Source: Marinicella meishanensis
GTDB taxonomy: Bacteria > Pseudomonadota > Gammaproteobacteria > Xanthomonadales > Marinicellaceae
DNA length: 64,000 nucleotides
Assembly: GCF_019931145.1 (NCBI RefSeq)
Contig: NZ_JAIOUV010000010.1
Location: 62,001-126,000 of the forward strand
Direction of reading: 5' to 3'
Part shown: positions 16,744-53,655 of the stretch, piece by piece
Numbering within the stretch: position 1 is the first letter of the stretch
Layout of the letters: every line of letters begins with the position of its first letter
The notes under the pieces: generated by a model
The model's database searches: none
Seen by the model: only the letters and a program-made list of their open reading frames with translations
What the model was told of the DNA's origin: nothing
Made by a program: the position numbers and the translations under genes

Positions 16744-16769
16744 AGGGCCTGTTAACACCAACAGGCCCT
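16744..16769. other. Perfect 10-bp hairpin in the dsbA leader
   Basis: AGGGCCTGTT-N6-AACAGGCCCT is a perfect 10-bp stem ending 23 nt upstream of the dsbA start. It lies between the terminator of the upstream dsbA paralogue and the dsbA ribosome site. Only a short T stretch follows on the minus strand. It may be a leader hairpin or an operator. Confidence 0.5.
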
Positions 16770-49701: not shown

Positions 49702-50217
49702 ATGAGCATGAAAGAAAGAAAGTTTGATGCCCTGCTGGGGATCTACTACGAGGACCTGTACCGCTTTGCTTACTGGCTTGGAAAAGACGAGCACATGGCC
49801 AAAGATCTGGTGCAAGAAACCTATTTGCGCGCCTGGCGGGCGATTGATTCTTTGAAAGACCAAAAAGCCGCCAAAAGTTGGATATTCACCATCCTGCGCC
49901 GCGAGTTTGCCCGGCAGTTTGAAAAAAAACTACCGATCATCAACAGTTTGGATGAGATGGTGACCGATGTGGAAGATGCCAATCACCGCACCCCGGATGA
50001 ATTGATGGACATCAACCTCACGCGGCAGGCCATGATGAAACTCGAGAGCAAATACGCCGAACCCCTGATGTTGCAAGTGATCGGTGGCTTCAGCTGCGAT
50101 GAAATCGCCCAACAACTGGAGATCAGCCCCAGCGCGGTGATGACCCAACTCTTTCGTGCCAGAAAACAACTGACTTCCCATTTGACCAGGGCAAGTAAAA
50201 TAGGTAACAAGATATGA
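49702..50217 (+). CDS. ECF-type RNA polymerase sigma factor
   Basis: A 171-residue protein with region 2 (about 8-75: DALLGIYYEDLYRFAYWLGK, DLVQETYLRAWRAIDSL) and region 4 (about 110-165: GGFSCDEIAQQLEISPSAVM, TQLFRARKQL). It lacks regions 1 and 3 and is of typical ECF length. A start two codons in (49708) is equally possible. The stop overlaps the next start as ATGA, and the next gene encodes its likely partner. Confidence 0.92.
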   Translation: MSMKERKFDALLGIYYEDLYRFAYWLGKDEHMAKDLVQETYLRAWRAIDSLKDQKAAKSWIFTILRREFARQFEKKLPIINSLDEMVTDVEDANHRTPDELMDINLTRQAMMKLESKYAEPLMLQVIGGFSCDEIAQQLEISPSAVMTQLFRARKQLTSHLTRASKIGNKI

Positions 50218-50927
50218 ATTACTTTGAATTTAAACAAATATTGGATGCCGATCCTTATTCACAAAACCCCGAATTTTTGCATGCCAAAAAGCATGACAAG
50301 CGTTGTCGCCAGGCTTACCAAAAGGCCATGGCCCAAGAGCAGATGATCCTGGACGCCTTGCAGGTGCCGGTGCCTGAGCACAACATCGAACACATCAAGT
50401 TTCACCAGGCTCAAGACCGCCAATCTCGATTCCGCCAGAATTTCATGGCGCTGGCCGCCTCGGCGGTGTTGGCGGTGGGCGTCGGCTTTTTCATGCTGAA
50501 CCAAAGCACCGAATCGGATTTGGAAAAATTCATTCACGAAGCATTGGCCATGGAGCCAGCTGTTTATAAGGGTGCAGATGAACTGCCTCAAGAAACCTTG
50601 AAACCCCTGTTTGCCAGCATCAACACCGCCATTGAAGGCGAACTGGGTGACGTGCATTTCATGAAGCTGTGCCCCACCCTCAATGGTCAAGGTGCGCGCA
50701 TGGTGGTGATGAATGAACTGAACCAACCGATCACTGTGCTGTACATGCCCAATTCACCGGTGGAAGAGGCCGTGAACATGCAAATGGACGGCCTCAAAGG
50801 CAAAATTGTGGCGCTGGAACAAGGCTCGGCGGCGATCATCGCCCAGCCCCACCAAAGCACCGCACAGATTGAGTCCAACCTGATCAATGCCATCAAACCG
50901 TTGAACCAGGGCCACCAGGGCCTGTAA
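50214..50927 (+). CDS. DUF3379-like membrane protein, putative anti-sigma factor
   Basis: A 237-residue protein. A cytoplasmic N-terminus of about 77 residues (MNYFEFKQILDADPYSQNPE, HDKRCRQAYQKAMAQEQMIL) is followed by one transmembrane segment (FMALAASAVLAVGVGFFML) and a periplasmic domain of about 140 residues with one Cys. The N-terminal block resembles DUF3379 proteins, which often sit next to ECF sigma factors. Its position and ATGA overlap with the sigma gene suggest it holds the sigma factor at the membrane. The stop codon lies inside the left arm of the palindromic element. Confidence 0.82.
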   Translation: MNYFEFKQILDADPYSQNPEFLHAKKHDKRCRQAYQKAMAQEQMILDALQVPVPEHNIEHIKFHQAQDRQSRFRQNFMALAASAVLAVGVGFFMLNQSTESDLEKFIHEALAMEPAVYKGADELPQETLKPLFASINTAIEGELGDVHFMKLCPTLNGQGARMVVMNELNQPITVLYMPNSPVEEAVNMQMDGLKGKIVALEQGSAAIIAQPHQSTAQIESNLINAIKPLNQGHQGL

Positions 50928-51181
50928 ACACCTACTGAAGGGCGACTGCTGGATCGTATTTTTCAGCCATCAAGGAATCAGTCGTGAAGTGTGGTCATTC
51001 CACATGAACGAATGGAATGACGCTGAGGGGTGGAAAATACGACCCAGCCCCATGGGTTCAGTCCACAAAGGCCACACCCTGCGTTGCTCATCGCTCGATT
51101 GGAATGACCAAACCACGCTTTTCGCGCCTTGATTGTGACCTTTGTAACCTGAACAGTTGTCATTCAGCAGGTGTTTACAGG
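50921..51181. repeat. Nested palindromic element, three-way-junction fold
   Basis: A 261-bp element with imperfect 19-bp terminal inverted repeats (CCTGTAAACACCTACTGAA at 50921-50939; complement at 51163-51181, one mismatch), with weaker similarity continuing inward. Two further inverted pairs lie inside. The first is 50948-50962 with 51034-51048 (15 bp, one mismatch), capped by GTCATTCC/GGAATGAC. The second is 51056-51071 with 51139-51154, two runs of 6 and 7 bp around a symmetric 3-nt internal loop. Together they define a closed stem and two branches. It fills most of the 415-bp gap between the DUF3379-like gene and the OmpA-type gene. I see no gene in it. It could be a MITE-like fold-back element or a structured RNA. 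Confidence 0.65.
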
Positions 51182-51342
51182 TCCCACACCCCTTCTCTCC
51201 AAATGCCTTGGTCTGCCGTGCCCACCACGCAGGCCAAGGTTCTCTTTTGTCAGCAAAGGTTAAATCGCCCAAATAAGCGATGACTTTGAAATACCCTGTT
51301 GCTAAAATGCCCGCAATGTACATTTTTTCATCAGGTTGAACC

Positions 51343-53655
51343 ATGGAACATCACAAACTCAAATGCCTCACCGCGGCCTTGCTGGCCACTTTTGGCGCCG
51401 GCGCGCAAAACAATGACAACACCGCCGGTCAAAGCAGCATATCTGGCACCGAAGACCAGATCAATTATGCTTATGCCGGTGACGACACCCGCCTGGGCAT
51501 TGGCATCGACAACGACGGTGAGTTGATTGGTGATTTCTTGAAATCATTCAACACCGACTGGGACCGCAACTGGATGGGTGAAGTGTGGTTGTCGGACGGC
51601 GCCGGTGGTTTGAAACTGGACTACCATCGCTTGTCAGGGGCCAATGAAAAAGGCGATTTGATCCTCAACGAAGACGACATCAAAATCTGGAAGTATTTTG
51701 CTGCAATCGACCAAAACACCTTCGATGACCGCAAAGTCACCGTCGGTTTTGGCGCCGAGGCCAAAGACCGTTTCTGGAATGTCAACCTGAGTTCCGCCGT
51801 CACCGGTTCACGCCTGGTCAACCAATCTTCGACCTCGGTCACCACCGACATATTTGGTCAGTTAGAAGGCCGCCCTTTTATGCAATCACAAACGGTGGAA
51901 ACCATCATCCGCAATTACGAGCACCCCTATGAATGGGGCTTGGGCGGTCGCCTGGGCAAGTACTTCGACCAAAGCCTGGTGCGCCTGACCGGTGGTTTGG
52001 ATTACGAACAAGGTGATTTTGACTCAGACCAGTTCACCGCCAGCCTCAACGTTGAAAAATACTTTGAAAACACCGGTCACTCGGTGGCCTTGTCGGTGGA
52101 ACAAATCCGCAAAACCGGTGATTTTGAGACCGACAAAGACGACACCCGCGCCAAACTCATGTACCGCTATGACTTTGGCCAATCATTCAAACCCACCACC
52201 GTGGAAGAAGAAGTTCAGGTGGTGGACGAAGACCGCTTGGCACAAATGAAACTGGACAACCGCCAGGTGGTGCAAAACCAGGTGGACCTGTCCTCCATGG
52301 CCTTTTTCGATTTGGACAAGGATTTCATCCGCGAAGATGCCGCTGTTGAATTGCGCACCCTGGTGGAACAGATCAAAGCCTCTGAATTGGCCAGCAGCAT
52401 TAATATTGTCGGTCACACCTGTTCGATCGCTTCGGATGCGTACAACCTGGACTTGTCAGCACGTCGCGCAGCCAGCGCCAAAGCTTTTTTTGTGGAACAC
52501 GGCATCGATGCCGACATCATCATGACCAAGGGCATGGGCGAATCGCAGCCAGCCTTTGACAATGATGGTCCGGACCAACCGAAAAACCGCCGCGTCGAAA
52601 TTGCCTTCCTAACCATCGAAGAAGACTTCATCGAAGTGGACATCGCCGATGAAGACATGCCGATGAAAAGGATCAAACGCAAAGTCGATGCACCGGCAGC
52701 CTGGATCAGCCGCGCTTTGCGCAACCCAGCACAACACAAACGCACCGTGGATGTGTACCGCTACCAGGAAACCGAAACCAACACCACTTTGGGTGAAATC
52801 GTGTTCCTCAACGCCTTACCGGTCGCCAATGACGATGGTCTGACCATCAACCGCAATTCGGCCGGCATCGTCATCGATGTGTTGGGCAATGACACCGATG
52901 AAGACGTCAATGACGTGCTGGTGATTGAGTCCACCACCGCAGCCAGCAACGGCACCGTGGTGAACAACGGCGACGCCATCACTTATACCCCCAACAGCGG
53001 GTTTGTCGGCACCGACAGTTTCACCTACACCGTGTCCGACGGTGAAGGCGGCACCGACACCGCCACCGTGACCGTCACCGTGGTCAACACCGGCCCCATT
53101 GCCAATGACGATGCCACATCCCTGGCCGTGGGTGAAACCGTGGTGGTGGATGTGCTGAACAATGATTCGGATCCAGATGGTCAGGTCAGCGAATTGAGCG
53201 TCATCGATTTCACCTCGAGCAGCGCCGATTTGACCGTGGTCAACAACGGCGATGGCACTTTGAGCATCACCGCCATGGCCGGTGCTGTGGGGCTGAACAC
53301 CATCACCTACACCATCAGTGATGCCGATGGCGCCACTGACCAAGCCACCGTCAGCGTGACTGTGGCCGACCCCAACACCGCGCCAGTGGCCGTGGACGAT
53401 GCCTATTTCACCAACATGAACCAATCGCGCACCATCAACGTGCTGCTCAATGACAGTGACCCCGATGGCGACCCATTGACCTTGGTCTCGGTCAACACCG
53501 ACGGTTTGATTGGTGAAGTGATTGATGTCAATGCCGACGGCACCATGACTTATGTGCCACCGGCCGATTGGTGTGGCGAGACCAGCTTCACCTACACCAT
53601 CACCGATGGCACCCAGGAAGCCACCGCCACGGTGGTCATGACGGTGCTCGATTGA
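51343..53655 (+). CDS. Outer-membrane protein: beta-barrel, OmpA domain, three cadherin-like repeats
   Basis: A 770-residue protein. A short signal-like N-terminus (LKCLTAALLATFGAGA) is followed by alternating strands with aromatic residues (about 40-290: WMGEVWLSDGAGGLKLDYHR, RFWNVNLSSAVTGSRLV), likely an outer-membrane barrel. An OmpA C-terminal peptidoglycan-binding domain follows (about 320-430: MAFFDLDKDFIREDAAVELR, NIVGHTCSIASDAYNLDLSA, NRRVEIAF). Then come three tandem cadherin-like repeats with the 'VANDDxxxxxxGxxVxxDVLxND' motif (about 485, 585, 680). The start lies 161 bp after the palindromic element. Confidence 0.9.
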   Translation: MEHHKLKCLTAALLATFGAGAQNNDNTAGQSSISGTEDQINYAYAGDDTRLGIGIDNDGELIGDFLKSFNTDWDRNWMGEVWLSDGAGGLKLDYHRLSGANEKGDLILNEDDIKIWKYFAAIDQNTFDDRKVTVGFGAEAKDRFWNVNLSSAVTGSRLVNQSSTSVTTDIFGQLEGRPFMQSQTVETIIRNYEHPYEWGLGGRLGKYFDQSLVRLTGGLDYEQGDFDSDQFTASLNVEKYFENTGHSVALSVEQIRKTGDFETDKDDTRAKLMYRYDFGQSFKPTTVEEEVQVVDEDRLAQMKLDNRQVVQNQVDLSSMAFFDLDKDFIREDAAVELRTLVEQIKASELASSINIVGHTCSIASDAYNLDLSARRAASAKAFFVEHGIDADIIMTKGMGESQPAFDNDGPDQPKNRRVEIAFLTIEEDFIEVDIADEDMPMKRIKRKVDAPAAWISRALRNPAQHKRTVDVYRYQETETNTTLGEIVFLNALPVANDDGLTINRNSAGIVIDVLGNDTDEDVNDVLVIESTTAASNGTVVNNGDAITYTPNSGFVGTDSFTYTVSDGEGGTDTATVTVTVVNTGPIANDDATSLAVGETVVVDVLNNDSDPDGQVSELSVIDFTSSSADLTVVNNGDGTLSITAMAGAVGLNTITYTISDADGATDQATVSVTVADPNTAPVAVDDAYFTNMNQSRTINVLLNDSDPDGDPLTLVSVNTDGLIGEVIDVNADGTMTYVPPADWCGETSFTYTITDGTQEATATVVMTVLD

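Follow-up and report, generated by a model that had tools for sequence, protein, structure and literature searches.

A 267-bp palindromic element of Marinicella meishanensis, very likely a MITE, carries two inverted copies of a widespread hairpin unit

REP/REPIN sequences, associated with RAYT, combine inverted hairpin units within one mobile element, and REP super-families are reportedly the subject of a published study. Bacterial MITEs more generally are mostly regarded as what deletion has left of insertion sequences, and their folds are usually taken to follow from the inverted repeats, as set out in two reviews (PMC10969869, PMC5896051). The same sources describe ERIC as an intergenic palindromic MITE (PMC10969869), and QMITE1 and QMITE2 of Coxiella burnetii as gammaproteobacterial MITEs with stable predicted folds and with small RNAs from some copies; QMITE1 is reported to lack orthologues in other genomes, and QMITE2 to have direct repeats of 7-11 nt and a GTAG REP (PMC5896051). 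Repeated, mostly intergenic stem-loop families, including Pae-1 and Ppu-9 of Pseudomonas, have been grouped by species by Cozzuto et al. 2008 (PMC2267715).

Here we describe an element in a 64,000-nucleotide stretch of Marinicella meishanensis DNA (the whole stretch analysed, hereafter the window). Like ERIC, it appears as an intergenic palindromic MITE; homology to ERIC was rejected, as the one E. coli ERIC locus compared reached at best 9.2 bits with the model of the hairpin unit introduced below and did not contain its core. It differs from REPINs in having terminal inverted repeats (TIRs) and, in its family, TA flanks, and a REPIN was rejected because the three Y1_Tnp genes of the M. meishanensis genome have no unit in their loci. 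QMITE1 and QMITE2 share with it the MITE nature and stable folds, and are set apart by their description only (PMC5896051); the families of Cozzuto et al. were likewise compared by description, and may overlap with the copies of single species (PMC2267715). With MITEs and insertion sequences of the IS5 family it has in common nearly matching terminal repeats, TA flanks and, within the element, no transposase gene of its own. Unlike those insertion sequences, it holds a folded module that is absent from the inside of the five IS5-family copies found in another genome (G224), with one unit just outside a copy, and that is common to elements with other ends. An earlier note on this DNA had called the element not previously described, and this holds for what was covered: a literature search including PMC5896051, PMC10969869, PMC4853749 and PMC2267715, mostly of open-access text and with sequences in figures and supplements outside its scope, gave no earlier description, and Rfam gave no match at gathering score in 14 loci, with other Rfam searches yielding only matches far below that score.

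The element spans positions 50918-51184 of the window (267 bp), with CA on either side (50916-50917 and 51185-51186), its flanks having been compared over 20 copies of the same genome. A 31-nt terminal inverted repeat bounds it: the left arm (50918-50948, plus strand) begins with GGGCCTGTAAACACC, where other copies mostly have GGGCCTGTTAACACC, and the right arm (51154-51184), located by an inverted-pair search, reads GGACCTGTAAACACC on the minus strand, the two being 84% complementary. The earlier note had recognized these repeats as 19 bp long, bounding 50921-51181, so that its account stands for their presence and falls short in their length and by 3 bp at each side of the element. It had also placed the start inside the stop codon of the DUF3379 gene. 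That TAA codon (50925-50927, plus strand) does lie within the element, inside the left terminal repeat, the element itself beginning at 50918. The gene in question (ORF 50214-50927, PF11859) is the 5' neighbor and is itself downstream of a sigma-factor gene; the 3' neighbor is an OmpA-domain gene whose frame starts at 51343, 161 bp past 51181 as had been stated. The OmpA-domain protein (51343-53655) contains three bacterial Ig or cadherin-like stretches. Of the two ORFs that overlap it (124 and 88 aa), neither had a match in a Pfam search.

Between the terminal repeats, two further inverted pairs delimit branch 1 (50948-51048) and branch 2 (51056-51154), and the predicted fold of 50921-51181 consists of a closing stem and two branches, in agreement with the nested two-branch structure already proposed. 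With RNA parameters this fold reaches -107.5 kcal/mol, where shuffled sequences average -74.3 (z -6.8), and with DNA parameters it is equally exceptional (z -6.9), none of 200 shuffles reaching the stability of the element in either case.

Using the window element as a blastn query against its own genome (4.0 Mb in 15 contigs), we obtained 35 matches, the window element included and a few of them being second, opposite-strand matches of one copy. Twenty copies are near full length, namely the window copy and 19 others at 80-92% identity, and model R2 of the hairpin unit reports 54 units at E up to 0.01. Among the 61 genomes searched as relatives, blastn gave a match in four, again counting the own genome, and one genome of the same genus carries a full copy at 81% identity. 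The lack of a second copy, named in the earlier note as part of what would refute its reading, is contradicted by the matches in the own genome. The nearest DUF3379 genes are found in four Marinicella records (68-74% identity), in which the gap between the DUF3379 and OmpA genes lacks the element and yields no unit with model R2. The DUF3379 proteins of these four relatives end 6-7 residues earlier, and no exact empty site was seen among the loci compared.

The oriented copies of this genome usually end in GGGCCTGTTAACACC, and the ends of other copies read GGGCCTGTTAACAC. Taking identical elements once over all loci collected, 38 distinct elements have ends of the type GGG[CT]CTGT, and these are flanked by TA on both sides in 22 cases, on one side in 14 and on neither in 2. 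The window copy, with flanks CA/CA instead of TA, is outside this count because its end differs from the pattern. The end pattern was searched in nine genomes. In G224, a single-contig genome from another family, five inverted pairs of GGGCGTGTTAACACTA lie about 808 bp apart and correspond to insertion sequences of 807-808 bp whose ends read GGGCGTGTTAACACTAAT; all five are flanked by TA on both sides. The end of this insertion sequence differs from the usual end of the M. meishanensis copies at one of the first 14 bases. It has two reading frames matching DUF4096 (PF13340) and DDE_Tnp_1 (PF01609), with a stop in the frame searched in two of the five copies, and the best NCBIfam model for both frames is IS5 NF033580, the DDE half scoring above the cut-off (129 vs 110 bits) and the first half just under it (104 vs 110 bits). 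G224 carries the element as well, and two of its copies at different sites (264 identities, 1 mismatch, 1 gap) point by their near-identity to recent movement in that genome. The C-terminal half of the G224 transposase was matched in 7 of 24 unit-carrying genomes, G224 included.

A second end type, GGGTCTGTTGACGTTTCGCG in element L150, resembles the end of an 826-bp insertion sequence of another genome (G363), which has ends TAGGTTCTGTTGACGTTTCGCGG and a transposase also assigned to NF033580. The one element of G363 whose ends were read (L105) has other ends, unlike those of the G363 insertion sequence, and in genome G401 the insertion-sequence ends do not fit the element either. A profile search of the M. 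meishanensis genome gave no match to DDE_Tnp_1 (PF01609) and none to DDE_3 (PF13358), so that the autonomous relative with nearly the same ends was found in another genome (G224) and none in the own one. An IS630/Tc1-mariner origin, considered because of the TA flanks, was rejected given the lack of a PF13358 match in this genome and the IS5-family assignment of the insertion sequence with matching ends. At 267 bp (below 500 bp), present in multiple copies and without a transposase gene, the element is very likely a MITE; this interpretation, which the earlier note had offered as a fold-back or MITE-like element, is well supported by the copies, TIRs and TA flanks, by the four relatives without the insert and by the IS5-family insertion sequence. 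The matching ends suggest that an IS5-type transposase is likely to have mobilized it, and the copies in the genome of the window are probably no longer mobile.

Beyond what had been noted before, branches 1 and 2 are homologous, aligning with each other once branch 2 is taken from the minus strand (copy alignment A2), and the element thus contains two units in opposite orientation, which means that each DNA strand has one unit in core orientation. The unit consists of ATCAAGGC, a helix, a small hairpin, the other strand of the helix, and AACGC. Unit 1 (50953-51043, core on the plus strand; model R2, 64.6 bits, E 2.9e-17) has one substitution in each core motif (CAAGGA, GACGC), and unit 2 (51061-51148, core on the minus strand; 84.7 bits, E 1.7e-23) has both motifs intact. 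The palindromic center CCCATGGG (51049-51056), identified from the sequence and from alignment A2, separates the two, and these are the only units that model R2 finds in the 64-kb window.

An alignment of 28 of the units read (A3), from which model R1 was built, contains 22 predicted pairs, 17 of them with compensatory changes, and in a search of 121 relatives' genomes model R1 matched 51, counting the own genome. In the larger alignment A4 (48 units, 45 distinct, from 34 loci), the source of model R2, 88.8% of cells are paired compared to 59.3% when shuffled and 31-48% in slid controls, and both sides change in 21 of the 22 pairs, figures that are favored by the fitting of A4 to the model; alignment A5 was likewise model-fitted. 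Most helix pairs therefore covary in either alignment, as a structured element was expected to do in the earlier note. The unpaired core is nearly fixed across the 48 units of A4, with CAAGGC conserved position by position in 45, 45, 47, 48, 47 and 46 units, and AACGC in 46, 47, 48, 45 and 42. The folded module is likely under selection.

The unit occurs widely across the phylum, in elements with several types of ends. At a threshold of E up to 1e-4, and counting the own genome once in each sample, model R2 matched 139 of 370 genomes in a class-level sample and 109 of 397 in a phylum-level sample, other classes being among the latter. Unit-bearing elements differ in their ends, which read GGGCCTGTTAACAC, GAGACCTTTGC, GAGCCTATCC, GGAGCCTCTGAAC, TAGCCCGCATATTTCATGAGG and others. 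Two elements from two genomes of one genus (L148 and L149) illustrate this: they differ at 7 of 214 inner bases, compared to 9 of 25 and 10 of 27 bases in their ends (ungapped), with complementarity kept within each element. Genome G051 has 18 listed units of equal score, and the one copy read there has ends TAGCCCGCATATTTCATGAGG. The unit also lies on plasmid records of Methylophaga frappieri and Azotobacter chroococcum, and a Halomonas record was matched by blastn only. Searched against phages and plasmids, the window element gave no match, and a relative of it from genome G421 matched no phage and four plasmid records. Among the loci that served as negative controls, model R2 found nothing in seven IMG/VR viral contigs with the end motif, nor in the three Y1_Tnp loci and the four Marinicella loci mentioned above. 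Phage or plasmid cargo was rejected, as the window element is unmatched in both and the seven IMG/VR loci are without the unit.

We compared the predicted stability of the two strands for 99 units from 62 loci, omitting repeats from the own genome and some near-duplicates (e.g. L067, L068, L080, L089, L099). The core strand gives a more stable fold than the complement in 90 units, a less stable one in 8 and a tie in 1, with a mean difference of -6.4 kcal/mol, compared to 154 vs 145 among 300 random flank windows. Among the 20 own copies found by blastn, which are related and thus not independent, the core strand is the better one in 19 of 20 for each unit, and the same comparison gives 7 of 20 for the whole element. 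The structured non-coding RNA that the earlier note had given as a second option is possible for the internal modules, with their covariation and strand-specific fold. At columns 33-90 and 34-89, G.A and A.G occur in 58 and 61 of the 99 units, forming a tandem G.A motif that cannot form on the complement strand. G.U exceeds A.C by 118 to 27 over all pairs of the 99 units, and by 30 to 7 in the 14 pairs that are at least 85% Watson-Crick. The ratio over all pairs carries a bias from predicting the structure on the core strand, and it is not used on its own. The bias can be seen when the own copies are read on the plus strand: G.T exceeds A.C in unit 2 (30 to 17 cells), which is antisense there, and in the ends (40 to 24 cells). 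Mismatches private to single own copies are, on small counts, even (G.T/A.C 4/4 in unit 1, 7/7 in unit 2 and 8/7 in the TIRs), suggesting neutral decay of individual copies, with any selection acting on the propagating lineage. G.U and sheared G.A pairs are tolerated in DNA too, which counts against reading these pairs as evidence of RNA. We lean towards RNA over single-stranded DNA as the form in which the unit would work.

For the gene context, element ends were found for 60 of 73 loci; those that fell out were shorter than 2,000 bases or had no clear inverted repeat. Genes were called crudely, as ORFs of 150 codons or more. There are 37 gene 3' ends no more than 60 bp to either side of an element end and 22 gene 5' ends between -30 and +60 bp, the two intervals being of unequal size. 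In several cases, on an uncounted reading of the sequences, the TA target and the element's first G together form a TAG stop codon, by which the element would enter a stop codon harmlessly. Elements scored with a single unit and located beside a gene 3' end are sense in 7 cases and antisense in 10 (n=17). Excluding loci L141-L151, which were scored with one unit each though most hold two, leaves 3 sense and 8 antisense (n=11), a tally from which L147, apparently single-unit and sense, was removed along with the others. These tallies give no sign of a 3'UTR role.

One genic site was shared between genomes. In four genomes of a sister genus, two of them nearly identical (L079, L080, L084, L090), a single-unit copy adjoins a fabG-like gene at its 3' end; by Pfam this gene encodes a short-chain dehydrogenase, and it is located behind an acyltransferase-domain gene. 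Between lineages, the apical domain of this copy is identical at 49/61, 50/61 and 56/59 positions (80-95%), compared to 7-11 of 14-15 in the stems and 38-45% over the following 89-100 columns. The core of this copy is antisense to the fabG-like gene.

Taken together, we consider it fairly probable that the element is an IS5-type MITE, moved in trans, that carries a strand-specific folded module, probably RNA. Such a non-autonomous element, whose TIRs fit an IS5-family transposase acting in trans, would insert at TA, and transposases of the IS5 type would have moved the copies. With two homologous units inverted between its ends, one unit would fold correctly whichever side transcription comes from, and the working unit would then be RNA produced by read-through transcription as opposed to single-stranded DNA. 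Since the unit is common to elements with different ends, selection may act on the propagating element, perhaps via a host factor common to the phylum. More tentatively, and with somewhat less than even confidence, the unit may represent an undescribed class of mobile structured RNA that is found phylum-wide inside MITEs swapping ends to use different IS5-type transposases, in which the inverted pair would guarantee one sense copy upon transcription of either strand, and from which some copies, e.g. the one beside the fabG-like gene, would have been taken over by the host. The module, absent from the matching insertion sequence, keeps its core and pairing while ends and stems are replaced, across 109 of 397 genomes of the phylum sample. 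If this holds, small transposons contain a nucleic-acid part that is under selection, and much intergenic sequence that lacks an Rfam family becomes open to annotation and testing.

A different reading, which we regard as unlikely though with an appreciable chance of being right, is that the unit works as single-stranded DNA, folding on an exposed (e.g. lagging) strand and guiding the transposition machinery or a replication factor, with RNA irrelevant. The DNA-parameter fold is as exceptional as the RNA fold, and DNA-level events follow the hairpins, including an inversion of the branch-2 tip and one-branch, hybrid and end-only derivatives; the lack of a sense bias beside genes would fit as well. 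However, the combination of conserved internal-loop letters and stems that vary freely is more reminiscent of a structured RNA, and cut-and-paste by DDE transposases requires no folded single strand. It is more improbable still that the module has no function, with template switching or arm conversion preserving the complementarity of its palindromic arms, and with a core that is just ancestral sequence carried by the MITE. Ends and stems do change symmetrically, arm-to-arm copying in palindromes could also yield compensatory changes, and the nearly equal private G.T and A.C mismatches are those expected without selection on single copies. Yet arm conversion should erase the internal loop, whereas CAAGGC and AACGC are nearly invariant in 48 units with varying stems, the fold favors one strand, and the apical domain at the fabG-like site is 80-95% identical vs 38-45% over 100 columns downstream. 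Finally, a host regulatory RNA selected in place, with the MITE only as its carrier, seems very doubtful: the orthologous single-unit copy at the fabG-like site, kept in four sister-genus genomes with its tip conserved and its stems diverged, speaks for it, but its core is antisense to the gene, the private mismatches of the own copies are even, and the site of the window copy is empty in the four relatives examined.

Beyond these near-full-length copies, the M. meishanensis genome contains a number of derivatives. Head-to-tail dimers with a shared junction sequence are found at C10:262529-263052 and C11:36292-36812, along with part of one at C8:278400-278552, and these two sites and the partial third look as if the dimer moved as one unit. 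In the copy at C15:186504-186763 (L026, 1495-1774), the branch-2 tip lies inverted between the two arms of its stem, and the copy at C8:119868-120023 (L029) is a hybrid in which the 5' half of unit 1 is apparently joined to the 3' half of unit 2. Five weak units at C9:112471-113579 (in L032), three of them spaced by 148 bp, apparently form a tandem array. The window itself holds a 24-bp end-only remnant of a second copy, GGGCCTGTTAACACCAACAGGCCC, at 16745-16768; another such remnant lies at C8:410151, and a similar end-only copy (L140) is present in G421.
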